Shown one piece after another: positions 14,753 through 52,464 of a DNA stretch of 64,000 nt. Made by a program: the position numbers and the translations under genes. The notes beneath the pieces are model-generated. The model made no database searches. It was not told where the DNA came from and was given only the letters and a program-made list of their open reading frames with translations. Within the stretch, counting starts at the first letter, position 1. Each line of letters begins with the position of its first letter. Origin of the DNA: Lentisphaeria bacterium (GTDB lineage: Bacteria > Verrucomicrobiota > Lentisphaeria > Victivallales > Victivallaceae); NCBI GenBank assembly GCA_017462015.1, contig JAFTRX010000071.1, forward strand, positions 62,001-126,000, read 5' to 3'.

Positions 14753-14936
14753 CCCAGCTGCCGGTTGCGTTCATATCAATTTTTGAACGCAACTCCACTG
14801 GCAGCGCGGCGCGGAGCGCACGCGCGTTTTGCTTGCGCAAAACAATATCAGACAAAATCGCTTTTTCGACATACAATTTTATTCCACTGAAAAAATTGAA
14901 AAACAAACGTTTTGCTGATTTTATGTAATAGCTGTG
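14753..14936 (+). repeat. Short (half-length) copy C of the intergenic repeat family
   Basis: This fills most of the 310-bp gap between trxA and alaS. It shares the block from TTTTGAACGCAACTCCACTGG through the ACGCGCGTTTTGC/GCAAAAC hairpin to GATTTTATG with copies A (26632-26789) and B (27880-28034), but lacks the central hairpin module. Its right end, read inward, is CACAGCTATTACATAA, close to the terminal repeat of copy B. The left end CCCAGCTG is a weaker match. No target duplication is seen. A second TTTTGAACGCAAC-related inverted copy (GGTTGCGTTCATAT) lies at its left edge. Confidence 0.8.
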
Positions 14937-26466: not shown

Positions 26467-26789
26467 CTCAGCTGTCCCGTAAGAAACAACCAACGGCGGC
26501 GCCTCGCGGGCAATCTTGGGGGCAAATCGGCGGACTCAGCTTCAGTCGAGGACGGAAGTCCACTCCTTCAGCTTCGCCTTGATTTACCCCCAACCTTGCA
26601 CCACGATCCATCCGCCGGTCGCGGCAGACCAGTTTTGAACGCAACTCCACTGGTGGCGCGGCGCATGGCGCACGCGCGTTTTGCTTTTCGCAAAACAAAA
26701 TCTGACAAAATCACTTTTTCAAAATCCTATTTTCTTCCGCTGAAAAAATTGAAAAACAAGCATTTCGCTGATTTTATGGGATAACTGCT
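26467..26789 (-). repeat. Copy A of the ~322-bp intergenic repeat (MITE-like), 3' of rpsD
   Basis: This occupies most of the 605-bp gap between the zinc-ribbon gene and rpsD. It aligns end to end with copy B (27713-28034). Ends are CTCAGCTGTCCCGTAA and, read inward from the right, AGCAGTTATCCCATAA. It contains the central hairpin (arms 26516-26528 and 26581-26593) and the GTTTTGC-type hairpin near 26680. No target duplication is visible (flanks GAAAAAGTT and ATTTTTTTT). Beyond its right end, 26845-26890 holds an inverted fragment of the same family (ATAAGAACAACCTACGGC on the minus strand). Confidence 0.85.
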
Positions 26790-26888
26790 ATTTTTTTTAA
26801 CAACTGCTTTATAAAAGACTCTTTTGCGACGGTGGAAATGCGTTCAAAACCAATATGAACGCGACCGGTGGCCGTAGGTTGTTCTTAT

Positions 26889-26924
26889 AAAAAAAGACCG
26901 TTGCAAAACCTTTGGTTTTGCAAC
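26889..26924 (-). terminator. Intrinsic terminator of rpsD, shared sequence with the Gfo/Idh terminator
   Basis: GTTGCAAAACC (26900-26910) pairs with GGTTTTGCAAC (26914-26924). On the minus strand it is followed by GGTC and seven T residues, then ATAAGAACAACCTACGGC. Confidence 0.88.
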
Positions 26925-26955
26925 AGCCTCTTTTTTGAGCTTACGCTTCGGTAAA

Positions 26956-27558
26956 TTACCGGGCGTAGTATTCGACGACGCTCATGATCTTGACCGGAAC
27001 CGGAATCTCCTCGAGCTGGGGAGCGCGGACCAGGGTCGCTTTGAGGTTGTCGAGATCGACTTCCATGTACGGAGGAACGATGTTGTTGCTCTTCTTGGCA
27101 GCTTCAGCAGCGGCGGGAGACTTGGCGGCATCAATGGAGATGACCTGACCTTCTTTGATCACGCAGCTGGAACGGTCAACGCGTTTGCCATCGACGAGGA
27201 TGTGACCATGGTTGACGATCTGCTTGGCAGCGAAGATGGTCGGAGCGAAACCGGCGCGATAGACCAGCGCATCGAGACGCATTTCGAGGCTGCGGAACAA
27301 CTTTTCGTGAGTAAGACCGAGACCGCTTTTGGCCTTGGCGAAAGCGATGCGAAGCTGCTTTTCGCTGATGGCATAGTAGTTGCGGAGTTTCTGTTTTTCC
27401 AGAAGCAATTCGCCGTAGGTGGAAAGTTTGACGCGACGGCCCTTACCATGGGGACCTGCAGCATACGGACGCTTGACGCTCGGACATTTCGGGTCGCCCC
27501 AGAGGCACTGACCGATACGACGACAGAATTTGTGTTTTGCTCGACTTGCGGTTGGCAT
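26956..27558 (-). CDS. rpsD: 30S ribosomal protein S4
   Basis: About 200 residues. The N-terminal zinc-type region has CRRIGQCLWGDPKCP (C+ form), then KLSTYGELLLEKQKLRNYYAISEKQ. The S4 RNA-binding domain has LEMRLDALVYRAGFAPT near 93 and QIVNHGHILVDGKRVD near 118. S4 binds 16S rRNA early in 30S assembly. The start ATG 27558 has AAGGG upstream; a TTG two codons earlier is less likely. The gene stands alone, outside an S13-S11-S4-rpoA cluster, and lies between two copies of the repeat family. Confidence 0.95.
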   Translation of the reverse strand: MPTASRAKHKFCRRIGQCLWGDPKCPSVKRPYAAGPHGKGRRVKLSTYGELLLEKQKLRNYYAISEKQLRIAFAKAKSGLGLTHEKLFRSLEMRLDALVYRAGFAPTIFAAKQIVNHGHILVDGKRVDRSSCVIKEGQVISIDAAKSPAAAEAAKKSNNIVPPYMEVDLDNLKATLVRAPQLEEIPVPVKIMSVVEYYAR

Positions 27559-27655
27559 AACCAATCCCTTTCTTTTTAAATTTGTTTATCTCCGGCACTC
27601 CGGGTGTCAAGCCTTATATTATATAATGGGGCCCGAAATACCAACGTATTTGTAT

Positions 27656-27683
27656 AATATACACCGAAATCGGCTGTTTTCAA
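27656..27683 (-). promoter_or_regulatory. Promoter for rpsD
   Basis: On the minus strand TTGAAA (27678-27683), 16-bp spacer, TATATT (27656-27661). It lies between rpsD and repeat copy B, so the repeat has not split it. The leader is about 90 bases. Confidence 0.6.
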
Positions 27684-27703
27684 GCAATATTTTCTTTTTT
27701 TGC

Positions 27704-28043
27704 GTAAAATATCACAGCTTTCCCATAAGAAACGACCTGCGGCGGCGCCTCGTGGGCAATCTTGGGGGCAAATCTGCGGACTCAGCTTCAGTCGAGGACG
27801 GAAGTCCACTCCTTCAGCTTCGCCTTGATTTACCCCCAACCTTGCACCACGATCCATCCGCCGATCGCGACAAAGCATTTTGAACGCAGTGTCACTGGTG
27901 GCGCGGCGCATGGCGCACGCGCGTTTTGCTTGCGCAAAACAAAATCTGACAAAATCACTTTTTCAAAATCTTATTTTCTTCCGCTGCAAAAATTGAAAAA
28001 ACAAACTTTTTTCTTATTTTATGGGATATCTGTGGTAAAATAT
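27704..28043 (-). mobile_element. Copy B of the repeat family: MITE-like element with terminal inverted repeats and 9-bp target duplication
   Basis: The element proper is 27713-28034 (322 bp). Its ends are CACAGCTTTCCCATAA and, read inward from the right, CACAGATATCCCATAA: 14 of 16 positions match. It is bounded by the direct repeat GTAAAATAT at 27704-27712 and 28035-28043, as expected for a 9-bp target duplication. There is no transposase gene inside. It carries the central hairpin (arms 27762-27774 and 27827-27839) and a 7-bp GTTTTGC/GCAAAAC stem with loop TTGC near 27925. It sits 3 bp past the stop codon of the U32 peptidase gene and fills the gap before rpsD. Confidence 0.85.
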
Positions 28044-36467: not shown

Positions 36468-38423
36468 ATGAGTGAGTACAAATTCTTCAACGTCGTCCCG
36501 TATTATCCCGGTCACGAGGAGGAGACTGCGCAGGATTTGATCGAACTTTACCAGCGTACCGGAATTGACCGCATCCTGTACAGCTTGTCTTTCCACCCGG
36601 AAGGCAGAAATGCTATGGAAAAAGCGGAACGTCTGGTGGCAAGCTACCGCAAACTCCGCGACGCTCTTGCCAAAGAACCGGCGATCCGGTGCGGCGTACT
36701 TATCCAGAGTATCCTCGGTCATGTCATCGGTTCCAAACTCGACAGCGAACAGTGGACACGAGTCATCACCCACGAAGGTGTGATCGAAGGAAAAAATACC
36801 CGTTTCTGCTCGCTGGATGCGGGTTTTACCAACTATATCCGCTCCGTCGGAGCTATGGTTGCCAAAGAGAAACCGTTCTTCATTCTCGGTGACGACGATA
36901 TCCGTTCCTGGTCGTCAGGTGTGGAGTGTTTCTGCGAACTCCACACTGCGGAATACAACCGCCGTCACGGAACAACTTTCACTCCGGAAGAGTATCGCAA
37001 AGCGGTTTGCGAGTCTCCGGCAGACAGTGAACTCTATAAAAACTTTGATCAGCTCCGTCAGGACACCGTCAACCGGGTCGCGGCTCTTCTCCGTGAAGGC
37101 ATTGACTCTGTCGATCCATCCATCCCCGGCGGAAGCTGTATGCCTGGTGGAGAATATTTCTTCAATCAGGACACTTCCCGCGCGCTCGGCGCCAAAGATC
37201 AAACCGACTCTGTGATGCGTATTTGCAATGCGTTGTATGTCGAACAGTCTCCGCGCGATTTCGCCGCCAACGTGTTCAAGAGTCAGGCTTACCGGAAATA
37301 TCATTCCGGTGTCACCACCGTGCTGGATGAAAGTGATACCTTTCCCCATTCGCTCTTCAGTAAATCCGCCATCAGTTTCCACGCCAAAGAGTGTTCGGCG
37401 ATCTTCAATGGTCTCAACGGTGCCAAACTCTGGTTCGTGAACTGCCGCCGCCCCGGCATTGTGGTCAGCCGGAAGTACACTGAAATTCTGGAAAAGTACC
37501 GCAACTTCTACCCCGCTTTGTCTGCCGCTGTTGCCGACAGCGAGACCTGCGGTGTCCGTATTCCCATCCATACCGACAAGGGTAACTGGCACGCGATCAC
37601 CAACCGGACTCCGAATATCACTCCCGGCTCATCCTGGGCTGAATTTCTGGGGATTTTCGGCATTCCGTTCTCTGCGGAAAAAGATTACACCCTTGATGGG
37701 ATTTACGCCATCAGAGGCAGTGAATTCGTCTCCCGCAAGAGCGATGAGGAGCTGCTCACTTTGCTCAAAGGAAAACTGCTGGTCGATGGCGATGCCGCCA
37801 AGGCTCTGACGGAACGCGGTTTTGCCAAATACCTCGGTGTGGAAGCTGTTGCGGCAACGCATCCGTTCAGCGGCGAGCGTTATATCGACGGTGATCCCAT
37901 CTACTGCCGCACCTGGGTGGATGCGCCGCAGCTGGTTCCGTGCAGTGACGACCTTGAAGTGCTGACCCAGATGTACTACACCCCTTACATGTACGCTCCC
38001 AATTCCAAAATCGTCTGCCCCGGCGCTGTCATCTTCAGCAATGAACTCGGCGGCAGGATCTGTACCACCGTCTTCCGGACTACCGATGAATTCACCCCGC
38101 GCGGCGGAGAACCCCGCAAGAACTGGCTGATCTATCTGCTGGAAGCTATGGAAAACGGCGGCGCATCCGGAACCATCATCACCGATCAGCCGGCACTTTC
38201 CATCACCCGGAAGATGAGTGACAACTCCACGCTGGTCATGATTTGCAATCTGGGCTTTGATGCTCTGGATGATATTGTGATCAAGTACAAAAATGCCTCC
38301 ATGGTCACTGTTCTTTCTGCGGATGGAGTCTGGGAAAAGGTTCCGTTCGCCGCAAGCGGCAGCACGGTTTCCATCCCCCGGGCTGTTGCCTGCTACGAGA
38401 CTGTTGTAATCAAAATCAAATAA
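36468..38423 (+). CDS. Putative glycosidase-like protein (cytoplasmic paralogue of a tandem pair)
   Basis: 651 residues without a signal peptide. I cannot name the family. It aligns along its whole length with the next gene. Shared blocks are FNVVPYYPG/FNIIPCRIG at the start, FFILGDDDIRS at 137-147, SVDPSIPGG at 214-222, ESPRDF-like near 260, VLDESDTFP at 285-293, SKSAISFHAKECSAIFNGL near 298 and LPGAV...N.LGG near 520. Alternating strands and helices with acidic residues at strand ends suggest a TIM-barrel hydrolase of clan GH-A type, with a C-terminal beta domain. The Asp of GDDD and the Glu of DES are candidate catalytic residues. This is inference. AGAGAGGTG precedes the start. C-rich codons suggest high expression. 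Confidence 0.75.
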   Translation: MSEYKFFNVVPYYPGHEEETAQDLIELYQRTGIDRILYSLSFHPEGRNAMEKAERLVASYRKLRDALAKEPAIRCGVLIQSILGHVIGSKLDSEQWTRVITHEGVIEGKNTRFCSLDAGFTNYIRSVGAMVAKEKPFFILGDDDIRSWSSGVECFCELHTAEYNRRHGTTFTPEEYRKAVCESPADSELYKNFDQLRQDTVNRVAALLREGIDSVDPSIPGGSCMPGGEYFFNQDTSRALGAKDQTDSVMRICNALYVEQSPRDFAANVFKSQAYRKYHSGVTTVLDESDTFPHSLFSKSAISFHAKECSAIFNGLNGAKLWFVNCRRPGIVVSRKYTEILEKYRNFYPALSAAVADSETCGVRIPIHTDKGNWHAITNRTPNITPGSSWAEFLGIFGIPFSAEKDYTLDGIYAIRGSEFVSRKSDEELLTLLKGKLLVDGDAAKALTERGFAKYLGVEAVAATHPFSGERYIDGDPIYCRTWVDAPQLVPCSDDLEVLTQMYYTPYMYAPNSKIVCPGAVIFSNELGGRICTTVFRTTDEFTPRGGEPRKNWLIYLLEAMENGGASGTIITDQPALSITRKMSDNSTLVMICNLGFDALDDIVIKYKNASMVTVLSADGVWEKVPFAASGSTVSIPRAVACYETVVIKIK

Positions 38424-38452
38424 CCAGATATATATAAGGAGTTGTATTATAA

Positions 38453-40495
38453 ATGAAAAAAATGTTGTTTATGTTGTGTGCATTTGCGGCAGTTGCCGCG
38501 TTGGCTGCACCTCAGAAATATGATGCACGCTACGATTACCTCACCAAAAAATTCAATATGTTCAATATCATTCCCTGCCGGATCGGTGCGGAAGAAGAAA
38601 CCGTTAAAGACATTATTGAATTTTATCAGCGAACCGGTATCGACACGGTTTTGTACAGTATGCCTCTGCATCCGCAAAACAGCACGCCTTACAAACGGTT
38701 GGACGACGTGCTTGCCAGTTATCGCAAAGTCAAAGCCGGTCTTGCCGGATATCCGATCAAGTTCGGCGCCCTGATCCAGGCTATCCTCGGTCACGTCACC
38801 AATCCGACGGTGGTTATTGATGGTTGGACCAGAACTTATACTTCCCGCCAGAAGGCCGCCCGTTTCTGCGCGTTGAACCCCAACTTTGCCAAGTATATTC
38901 GGACAGTCGGTGCGCGGGTCGCGGCGGAAAAGCCGTTCTTCATCCTCGGTGATGACGATATCCGTTCCAACAATGGCGGCAGAGAGTGTTTCTGCGCGCT
39001 GCATGTTGCAGAGTACAACCGCCGGTTCAAGGGGAACTTCAAAACTCCGGAAGAGTACCGCAGTGCGGTCGTCAATGCCAAAAATACCGATCAGGTCTAT
39101 CTCAATTACGAGATCCTGCGTAAAGAAGGTGTTGCCAATGTCGGTAAGTTTTTGCGTGAAGGTATCAACTCTGTCGATCCTTCCATCCCCGGCGGAACCT
39201 GCTGTCCCGGCGGTGAATATTATCACTATTTCGACCTCACCCGCGAGATGGCGGCAAAAAATCAGCCGCACATGATGCGTATGTGCAATGCTCATTACGT
39301 TGAAGAGTCCCCCCGCGACTTCCCCTATAATGTACTCAAAACTCAGATTTACCGCAAGCACTTCAGCTCCATCCCCTCTCTCTTCGACGAAAGCGATACC
39401 TTCCCGCAGGCTCTGCACAGCAAATCTGCTATGAGTCTGCACGCCAAAGTTTCCTCTGCCATTTTCAACGGCTTGAGGGGAACCAAGCTCTGGTATGTGA
39501 ATTGTCACAAGCCCGGCGACTTTGTGGTAAGCCGCAAATATACTGATATTCTTGCCAAACATGCAAAATTTTATCCGGCGCTCTTTGAAGCAGTGCAGGG
39601 CAGTCGTGACGGCGGGGTTTTTATTCCCGGGTTCAAGAGCGAGCATCTGTTCCACTCCACCAATTTTTCGACCCCTATCATTCCTCCGGAAGTGCAGAAC
39701 TGGGCGTGGTTCATGGGTATCTACGGTATTCCGTTCTACGGAGAAGTCCACTTCAACAAGCTGGGAGTCTATGCGTTGCGCGGTGCGTATGCCGTTGGAC
39801 GGTTGACTGATGCACAGTTGAAAGATATGTTCAAAAACAAAGTTCTCGTAGACGGCGCCGCTGCTGTCGAGTTGTGCAAGCGCGGTTTCAGTAAATATCT
39901 GGGAATCGAAACGCGCACGCCGGATTGCTTCTACCGCAGTGAAGTTTATCCTGACACCAAACAGAACATTTACTGCCGCAGCTGGAAAGGTGCTCCGGAG
40001 CTGGTCATAAAGTCCCCAAATGCCAAAGTTCTGACCCTTATCAATGCGATCAGCTATGCGGTAAAAGGCGACCGCAACCGGGTCCTTCCCGGAGCGGTGC
40101 TTTGTGAAAATTCCCTCGGCGGCAAAGTGTTGACCGTTGCTTTCTGCAGTGAAGAACACTTTTCTCTCCGTGCCGGTACTCCCCGACAGAATTGGTTGAA
40201 CTATCTGCTGGACAACCTTGATTCGGAAGTTACCCAGGGGGCAGTTATGAACGATCAGCCGGTAATGGCGGTCAAACGTTTTGCCAAAGATGGTTCCAAA
40301 CTGCTGATGATCGTCAATCTGGGATATGATCCGCTTGATTCTGTCACCCTCAAGCTGAACAAGGTGGCAAAAATAGAATCTTTGAACGAACAGGGGGAAT
40401 GGGTCCCGGTCAAATTCAAACGTGCATGTGCAAAAAACGTGGTTGCCGATATTGCCATGCCATGCTACAAAGTCGTCATTTTGCGGGTAAAGTAA
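38453..40495 (+). CDS. Putative glycosidase-like protein (exported paralogue of a tandem pair)
   Basis: 680 residues with a clear N-terminal signal peptide (MKKMLFMLCAFAAVAALAA, cleavage probably after the last Ala). The mature protein is a full-length paralogue of the preceding gene: same blocks LGDDDIRSNNGG, SVDPSIPGG, ESPRDFPYNV, LFDESDTFPQALHSKSAMSLHAK, LPGAVLCENSLGGKVL and the C-terminal MIVNLGYDPLDSVTLK. It should act in the periplasm or outside on the same kind of glycan bond. A family assignment is not possible from sequence reading. AAGGAG precedes the start; it is 29 bp behind the first paralogue and 1 bp ahead of the lyase gene, so all three form one operon. Confidence 0.78.
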   Translation: MKKMLFMLCAFAAVAALAAPQKYDARYDYLTKKFNMFNIIPCRIGAEEETVKDIIEFYQRTGIDTVLYSMPLHPQNSTPYKRLDDVLASYRKVKAGLAGYPIKFGALIQAILGHVTNPTVVIDGWTRTYTSRQKAARFCALNPNFAKYIRTVGARVAAEKPFFILGDDDIRSNNGGRECFCALHVAEYNRRFKGNFKTPEEYRSAVVNAKNTDQVYLNYEILRKEGVANVGKFLREGINSVDPSIPGGTCCPGGEYYHYFDLTREMAAKNQPHMMRMCNAHYVEESPRDFPYNVLKTQIYRKHFSSIPSLFDESDTFPQALHSKSAMSLHAKVSSAIFNGLRGTKLWYVNCHKPGDFVVSRKYTDILAKHAKFYPALFEAVQGSRDGGVFIPGFKSEHLFHSTNFSTPIIPPEVQNWAWFMGIYGIPFYGEVHFNKLGVYALRGAYAVGRLTDAQLKDMFKNKVLVDGAAAVELCKRGFSKYLGIETRTPDCFYRSEVYPDTKQNIYCRSWKGAPELVIKSPNAKVLTLINAISYAVKGDRNRVLPGAVLCENSLGGKVLTVAFCSEEHFSLRAGTPRQNWLNYLLDNLDSEVTQGAVMNDQPVMAVKRFAKDGSKLLMIVNLGYDPLDSVTLKLNKVAKIESLNEQGEWVPVKFKRACAKNVVADIAMPCYKVVILRVK

Positions 40496-52230: not shown

Positions 52231-52455
52231 ACTGCTGTTTCTCCAAGACGACCTGCGGCGGCTCGCTGGCGAAAATAAAAACCATAACATCCTTACGCCC
52301 TTAAGGTTCAGAAAAAAAAAGAATGGACTCTAACGGGGATGCATCGTGAGGTAAGGTTGTGGGTAAATCAAGGCGACAACGAAGGAGTGGACTTTGTGTC
52401 CATGACTGAGTGGGCGTCCGCCGATTTGCCCACAAGATTGCCCGCGAGGCATTCC
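52231..52455 (+). repeat. Copy D of the intergenic repeat family (rearranged, diverged)
   Basis: The central hairpin module is present in reverse orientation to copies A and B: TTGTGGGTAAATC (52357-52369) pairs with GATTTGCCCACAA (52423-52435), and GGCG/CGCC and GGAC/GTCC inner pairs are kept. Compared with A and B, one G-C pair of the long stem is replaced by T-A. A separate fragment of the family's left end (AGACGACCTGCGGCGGCTCGC) lies at 52246-52266 on the plus strand. The module lies 3' of the antiporter gene and tail to tail with the TadE-like gene. Confidence 0.8.
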
Positions 52456-52464
52456 CGTTTACCG

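Follow-up and report, generated by a model that had tools for sequence, protein, structure and literature searches.

In the window, a stretch of 64,000 nucleotides from the draft genome of a Lentisphaeria bacterium (G000), rpsD is bracketed by two copies of a short repeat, of which the one next to a U32 peptidase gene is 322 bp long, lies on the + strand (27713-28034) and is abutted on both sides by an exact 9-bp duplication, GTAAAATAT (Table 1). The right end of this element, as read, is TTATGGGATATCTGTG and is a near inverse of the left end CACAGCTTTCCCATAA, with 14 of 16 positions complementary. No transposase ORF, and no coding content, was found within 27713-28034. A preliminary description of this DNA had reported the repeat, the inverted ends inside it and the absence of a transposase between them, all of which are present as stated. 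Elsewhere in the window, two imperfect direct repeats, 71-75% alike and about 2060 bp apart (36799-39264), possibly reflect a gene duplication.

Table 1. Features of the element and its relatives in the window (R1, model of the hairpin; scores in bits)
Feature	Position	Strand	Basis
Right part of a further copy without the hairpin, element positions 166-322	14781..14936	+	sequence comparison, 83%
Copy A, 323 bp, ends CTCAGCTGTCCCGTAA / TTATGGGATAACTGCT, no target duplication	26467..26789	+	end-to-end alignment, 91.6%
Hairpin module of copy A	26489..26621	+	R1, 142 bits
Probable degenerate MITE remnant, opposite orientation, between copy A and rpsD: ATAAGAACAACCTACGG..CCACCGGTCGCG..TTTTGAACGCATTTCCACC	26830..26895	-	by eye, inference
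Left copy of 9-bp target duplication GTAAAATAT	27704..27712	.	sequence, flank comparison
Left terminal inverted repeat CACAGCTTTCCCATAA	27713..27728	+	sequence, copy comparison
MITE, 322 bp, IS4-type ends, non-coding	27713..28034	+	BLASTN copies, ends, duplications
Conserved 132-nt DNA hairpin module, apex around GTCGAG-GAC/GTC-CACTCC	27735..27867	+	R1, 143 bits
Right terminal inverted repeat; CACAGATATCCCATAA on minus strand	28019..28034	-	sequence, copy comparison
Right copy of 9-bp target duplication GTAAAATAT	28035..28043	.	sequence, flank comparison
Hairpin module without intact MITE ends	52330..52462	-	R1, 113 bits

The draft genome that holds the window comprises 131 contigs (2.8 Mb), has a completeness of 92.8% and is interrupted at repeats; in it, the element has 47 BLASTN matches (best E-value 1.4e-176), many of them cut at contig ends. 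With up to two mismatches, the 16-base end motif is found there about 177 times (86 + 91) versus 21 (12 + 9) for a reversed-motif control and, together with the BLASTN matches, this excess establishes the element as real and far beyond chance. Among 34 genomes of the genus, the motif with at most one mismatch is abundant solely in G000 (118 matches), G003 (82) and G018 (104), the reversed control giving 0-1; G011 has 20, G015 has 12 (of a variant), and there are few elsewhere. G003 and G018, both sister species, carry the same MITE. The named relatives are mostly from gut metagenomes (Lentisphaeria), Victivallis vadensis being more distant (59% in the U32 protein). Every genome with the MITE is a draft broken in repeats, and in these uncultured gut genomes dozens of repeats, many of them located at contig ends, are due to the MITE. 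In G011, 18 exact copies of CACAGATATCCCATAA occur, many about 110 bp from contig starts, as if a longer repeat with these ends, perhaps a larger element, had collapsed.

Facing ends 200-450 bp apart were paired at loci of the three main species and G030, giving 38 non-redundant pairs. The abutting 9-mers are alike at 8 or more of 9 positions in 25 pairs and exact in 18 (for example AAAAAATAT, CATAAAAAA, ATTTTTTCA, GTTTACGAC and TGACAATGC), the exact duplication being always 9 long; no more than 1 of 38 pairs attains 8/9 in any of ten shifted registers, and of 1406 comparisons between unrelated copies 15 attain it. The other 13 pairs show no duplication, as could result from recombination, decay or wrong pairing. 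Left-flank 9-mers have an A+T content of 77%, and with the flanks joined, 22 of 26 copies (23 with a duplication, 3 without) lie outside ORFs of at least 120 aa, as do 28% of random positions of the same loci, 72% being inside such an ORF. Being short and devoid of a transposase gene, multicopy, and provided with terminal inverted repeats conserved among copies and with fixed-length duplications at different sites, the element at 27713-28034 is a MITE. The earlier reading, that the element is non-autonomous and depends for movement on a transposase generating 9-bp duplications, holds, given the conserved ends, the exact 9-bp repeats at many sites in three species and the lack of coding content.

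The copy on the other side of rpsD, copy A, had been said to align end to end with the element, and this is borne out at 91.6% identity; it has no 9-bp duplication (flanks GAAAAAGTT / ATTTTTTTT). Copy A sits at a synteny break. In a sister locus (L192:6180-6420 compared with window 26467-28034), rpsD and both MITEs are absent, and the next gene after the U32 gene, about 118 bp away, is the small gene found past rpsD in the window. For the comparison of empty and filled sites called for in the preliminary description, this sister, the only close one with the U32 region, offers no clean empty site for the 27713 copy, since the whole rpsD block is absent from it. The neighbours of rpsD differ in each sister examined (L161-L163); gene order around rpsD is unstable in the genus, and rearrangement is general. 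Because the 27713 copy has its own duplication on both sides, the simplest account is that it inserted after rpsD had reached the U32 gene, and copy A, at the other junction and without a duplication, may be a recombination product.

Element positions 23-155 form one long imperfect hairpin, which the preliminary description did not mention, a segment that recurs throughout the genus without the 9-bp-type MITE ends. In an alignment of 51 distinct copies (A1), from which the pairs were themselves derived and which favours them somewhat, it has 34 pairs, 96% paired. Double changes occur in 21 of the 34 pairs (224 cells) and fall to 8-33 cells once one side is shifted by 1-3 columns, a margin far above what we would expect from pairs derived on their own alignment. 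The pair columns hold 1645 Watson-Crick cells, 17 G.T, 17 A.C and 53 other, with few intermediates between Watson-Crick types. Since an RNA of that strand would tolerate G.U over A.C, the equal G.T and A.C counts argue for DNA rather than RNA; on this symmetry, and with no Rfam match for the hairpin, we rejected an RNA gene. On inspection by eye the hairpin showed no attC box motifs, and an integron attC site was not considered further. At the DNA level, either selection for the hairpin or template switching could have kept the arms alike; the conserved unpaired positions speak for selection, without separating it from template switching, and if the hairpin is selected as DNA, this points to an unknown hairpin-binding protein. 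When run on 137 genomes of the order, R1 has matches in 26, of five genera; the hairpin occurs in four genera of a single family, with one occurrence in a second family, and the single match in G068 may be contamination.

The same hairpin is held by a second MITE framework with ends near GGTATTGTCTCATTTTTTGTGAAA (L270, L279, L280, L294, L140-L149 and L056; in G000, G018 and G012), in which the best-scoring hairpin copies of G000 and G018 and the G012 copies sit. This framework measures 264-272 bp between TGTC/GACA motifs in most copies (219 and 286 bp in two) and is flanked by 8-bp repeats, of which 16 of 20 agree at 7 or more of 8 positions and 14 are exact; its transposase might be of a family such as IS256. 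One hairpin is thus carried, in the same genome, by two MITEs with different ends and repeat lengths. It also forms tandem arrays at contig ends, with units of 150 and 213 bp (L044, L058 in G017 and L156 in G030); in L058 the last copy of the array stops at the apex. A further palindromic module, GCGCC..GTCGGGCTG.ACGCCCGAC.GGCG.GAGGTAGTG, occurs in G030 and G018 (L156, L161), and one MITE copy with the exact duplication ACTTTTTTT (L026:1111-1728) has its hairpin interrupted by a repeat of about 165 bp that is present twice.

One locus of 1818 bp with the MITE ends and exact 9-bp repeats (L081:1145-2962, G018) was considered as an autonomous form and rejected, its gene being of the IS110 family: the extra 1532 bp are an IS110-family element (NCBIfam NF033542, 1e-63) at the hairpin apex, after GTCGAG. 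The same junctions, one end each, left or right, are seen in L020, L022, L070, L264 and L268, and other IS110 ends lie elsewhere, not at the apex (L065, L265, L266, L267). An IS110-family element thus inserts repeatedly after GTCGAG of the apex, in three species, and the hairpin is already the landing site of an element of this RNA-guided family. IS110-type insertion into palindromic repeats has been described before (PMC1525189, PMC11208160).

The preliminary description had also suggested looking for a full transposon with the same 16-bp ends. None was found in the own draft, where the PF01609 profile had no match and a search with PF01609 and two IS4 proteins gave no IS4 transposase; an element combining exactly these ends with a transposase was found in no genome searched, and PF00872 (IS256-type) had no match in G000, G003 and G018. 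In this species the helper may have died out, or assembly may have dropped it along with the repeats. Starting from a PF01609 fragment in G018, we reached an IS with related ends, CACTGCTGTCCGGTAA, which is common in the order and has intact copies in G125 (1306 bp, a 418-aa gene, exact 9-bp repeats; the protein matches DDE_Tnp_1 at 1.4e-29, DUF4372 at 5.8e-27 and NCBIfam IS4 at 5e-85). Nearer still is a second set of IS4-family elements: L234 of the same order (1427 bp, ends CACAGCCATCCCATAG / CACTGCCGTCCCATAC, repeat TAAATAAAA 9/9) and L238, whose host is of the same bacterial family (it has 1435 bp, the ends CACTAGCATCCCATAG / CACTAACATCCCATAA and the repeat AAAGACAAT 9/9); right ends in L252 and L258 are CACAGCCATCCCGTAA. 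L251, L253 and L257 have the ends CACTACTGTCCGGTAA (TACTACTGTCCGGTAA in L257) / CACTGCTGTCCGGTAA with repeats 9/9. Transposases of these relatives match NCBIfam IS4 NF033592 at 9e-69, 4e-69 and 5e-85. The MITE variant CACAGCTATCCCATAA agrees at 14/16 with the first end of L234 and with the right end of L252, and MITE and IS4 element ends are alike at 12-14/16 overall, no shared subterminal sequence being seen. The preliminary description knew of no named family with these ends; the exact ends (CACAGCTGTCCCATAA) are on no transposase-coding transposon in the genomes searched, and the closest are those of IS4-family elements of the same order. The proteins of L133, L234 and L238 are DDE transposases with a YREK motif, spaced Y(2)R(3)E(6)K in the IS4-family relatives (YKARWAIEVFFKEIK in L234, for example), whereas the MITE itself is geneless. 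The IS4Sa subgroup has ends of the form CA------T, 8-10-bp repeats, a length of 1150-1750 bp and a YREK motif (PMC2266710 Table 1); the end CACAGCTTTCCCATAA fits this pattern (C1, A2, T9), as does the 9-bp duplication, and the relatives fit in all listed traits. Two exact patterns in viral contigs and BLASTN in plasmids gave no match for phage or plasmid carriage.

Together, these data make it very probable that the element is a non-autonomous IS4-family (IS4Sa-like) MITE moved in trans by an IS4-type transposase, with the hairpin as a passenger; the family assignment, drawn from ends, repeat length and relatives, is well supported, if not proven. An IS4-type DDE transposase supplied in trans would bind the 16-bp ends, CACAG(C/A)T(G/A)TC(C/T)CATAA, and the element would be excised, probably by cut and paste, and joined to target DNA, AT-rich and mostly intergenic, that has been cut with a 9-bp stagger, repair of the cuts then producing the 9-bp duplications. 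The middle of the element, the 132-nt imperfect hairpin presumably kept at the DNA level, would travel as a passenger that may have entered at least two MITE frameworks. Transposition of the MITE would thereby have a testable helper. Several transposase families other than IS4 make 8-9-bp repeats, and the MITE could belong to one of these (IS1, IS256, ISLre2 or a subgroup of IS5), its likeness to IS4 ends being due to chance, as the failure to find an autonomous copy with exactly these ends might suggest; we consider this unlikely, because up to 14 of 16 terminal bases, as well as the 9-bp repeat, are common to the MITE and to IS4 elements of the same order and, for IS256, the PF00872 profile has no match in the three main species.

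That the hairpin, as a REP-like or attC-like DNA element, drives the spread, the inverted ends being incidental, would agree with its wider distribution, its tandem arrays and its two different surroundings. However, in both MITE types the duplications (9 bp and 8 bp) abut the ends exactly, which marks these ends as the mobile boundary, and in L097 both 9-bp-type ends occur without the hairpin (no duplication being seen there); dispersal by the hairpin is already disfavoured and seems highly improbable. A composite transposon, in which two MITE copies moved rpsD as a unit (26467-28034) into the gap between the U32 peptidase gene and the gene beside it, would explain why both copies have the same orientation at the borders of the rpsD block and why in L192 the U32 gene directly precedes the next gene. 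We give this origin next to no weight, since the outer flanks GAAAAAGTT and GTAAAATAT are unlike and form no outer target duplication, the 27713 MITE has its own exact duplication as expected for a single insertion, and the differing rpsD neighbourhoods in the sisters indicate general rearrangement. Offered tentatively as a possibility that we hold to be doubtful, the hairpin might be an independent structured-DNA element, read in its hairpin form by a recombinase or other DNA-binding protein of these Lentisphaeria and repeatedly inserted into, or captured by, unrelated MITEs as vehicles, with covariation of its arms preserving a DNA fold whose internal loops are fixed.

MIC231 are mobile cassettes with the ends of IS231, of the IS4 family. 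The MITE is likewise non-autonomous with IS4-family ends, but IS231 ends start with CAT and its repeats are 10-12 bp (PMC2266710 Table 1). With IS4Sa (De Palmenaer et al. 2008, PMC2266710), it shares ends that start with CA and have T at position 9 and a repeat within 8-10 bp, and its presumed helpers, of 1.3-1.4 kb with one DDE gene and the YREK motif, also agree; unlike IS4Sa, the MITE has 322 bp and no transposase, and its exact ends are on no autonomous element found. MITEs of Porphyromonas gingivalis, BrickBuilt among them (PMC4596501), are similarly non-coding, with an internal repeat module and ends shared with a full IS, but they have IS5-family ends, irregular or no duplications and, in place of a covarying hairpin, simple 23-nt tandem repeats. 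The REP elements at which IS110-type insertion sequences land (PMC1525189, PMC11208160) are, like the hairpin, dispersed DNA palindromes serving as landing sites of the IS110 family; REPs are 20-40 bp (PMC3733652), whereas here the palindrome is about 132 nt, has conserved internal loops and rides inside MITEs. As a MITE the element is of a kind already known and, in our view, the novelty lies in the covarying DNA hairpin common to two MITE types.
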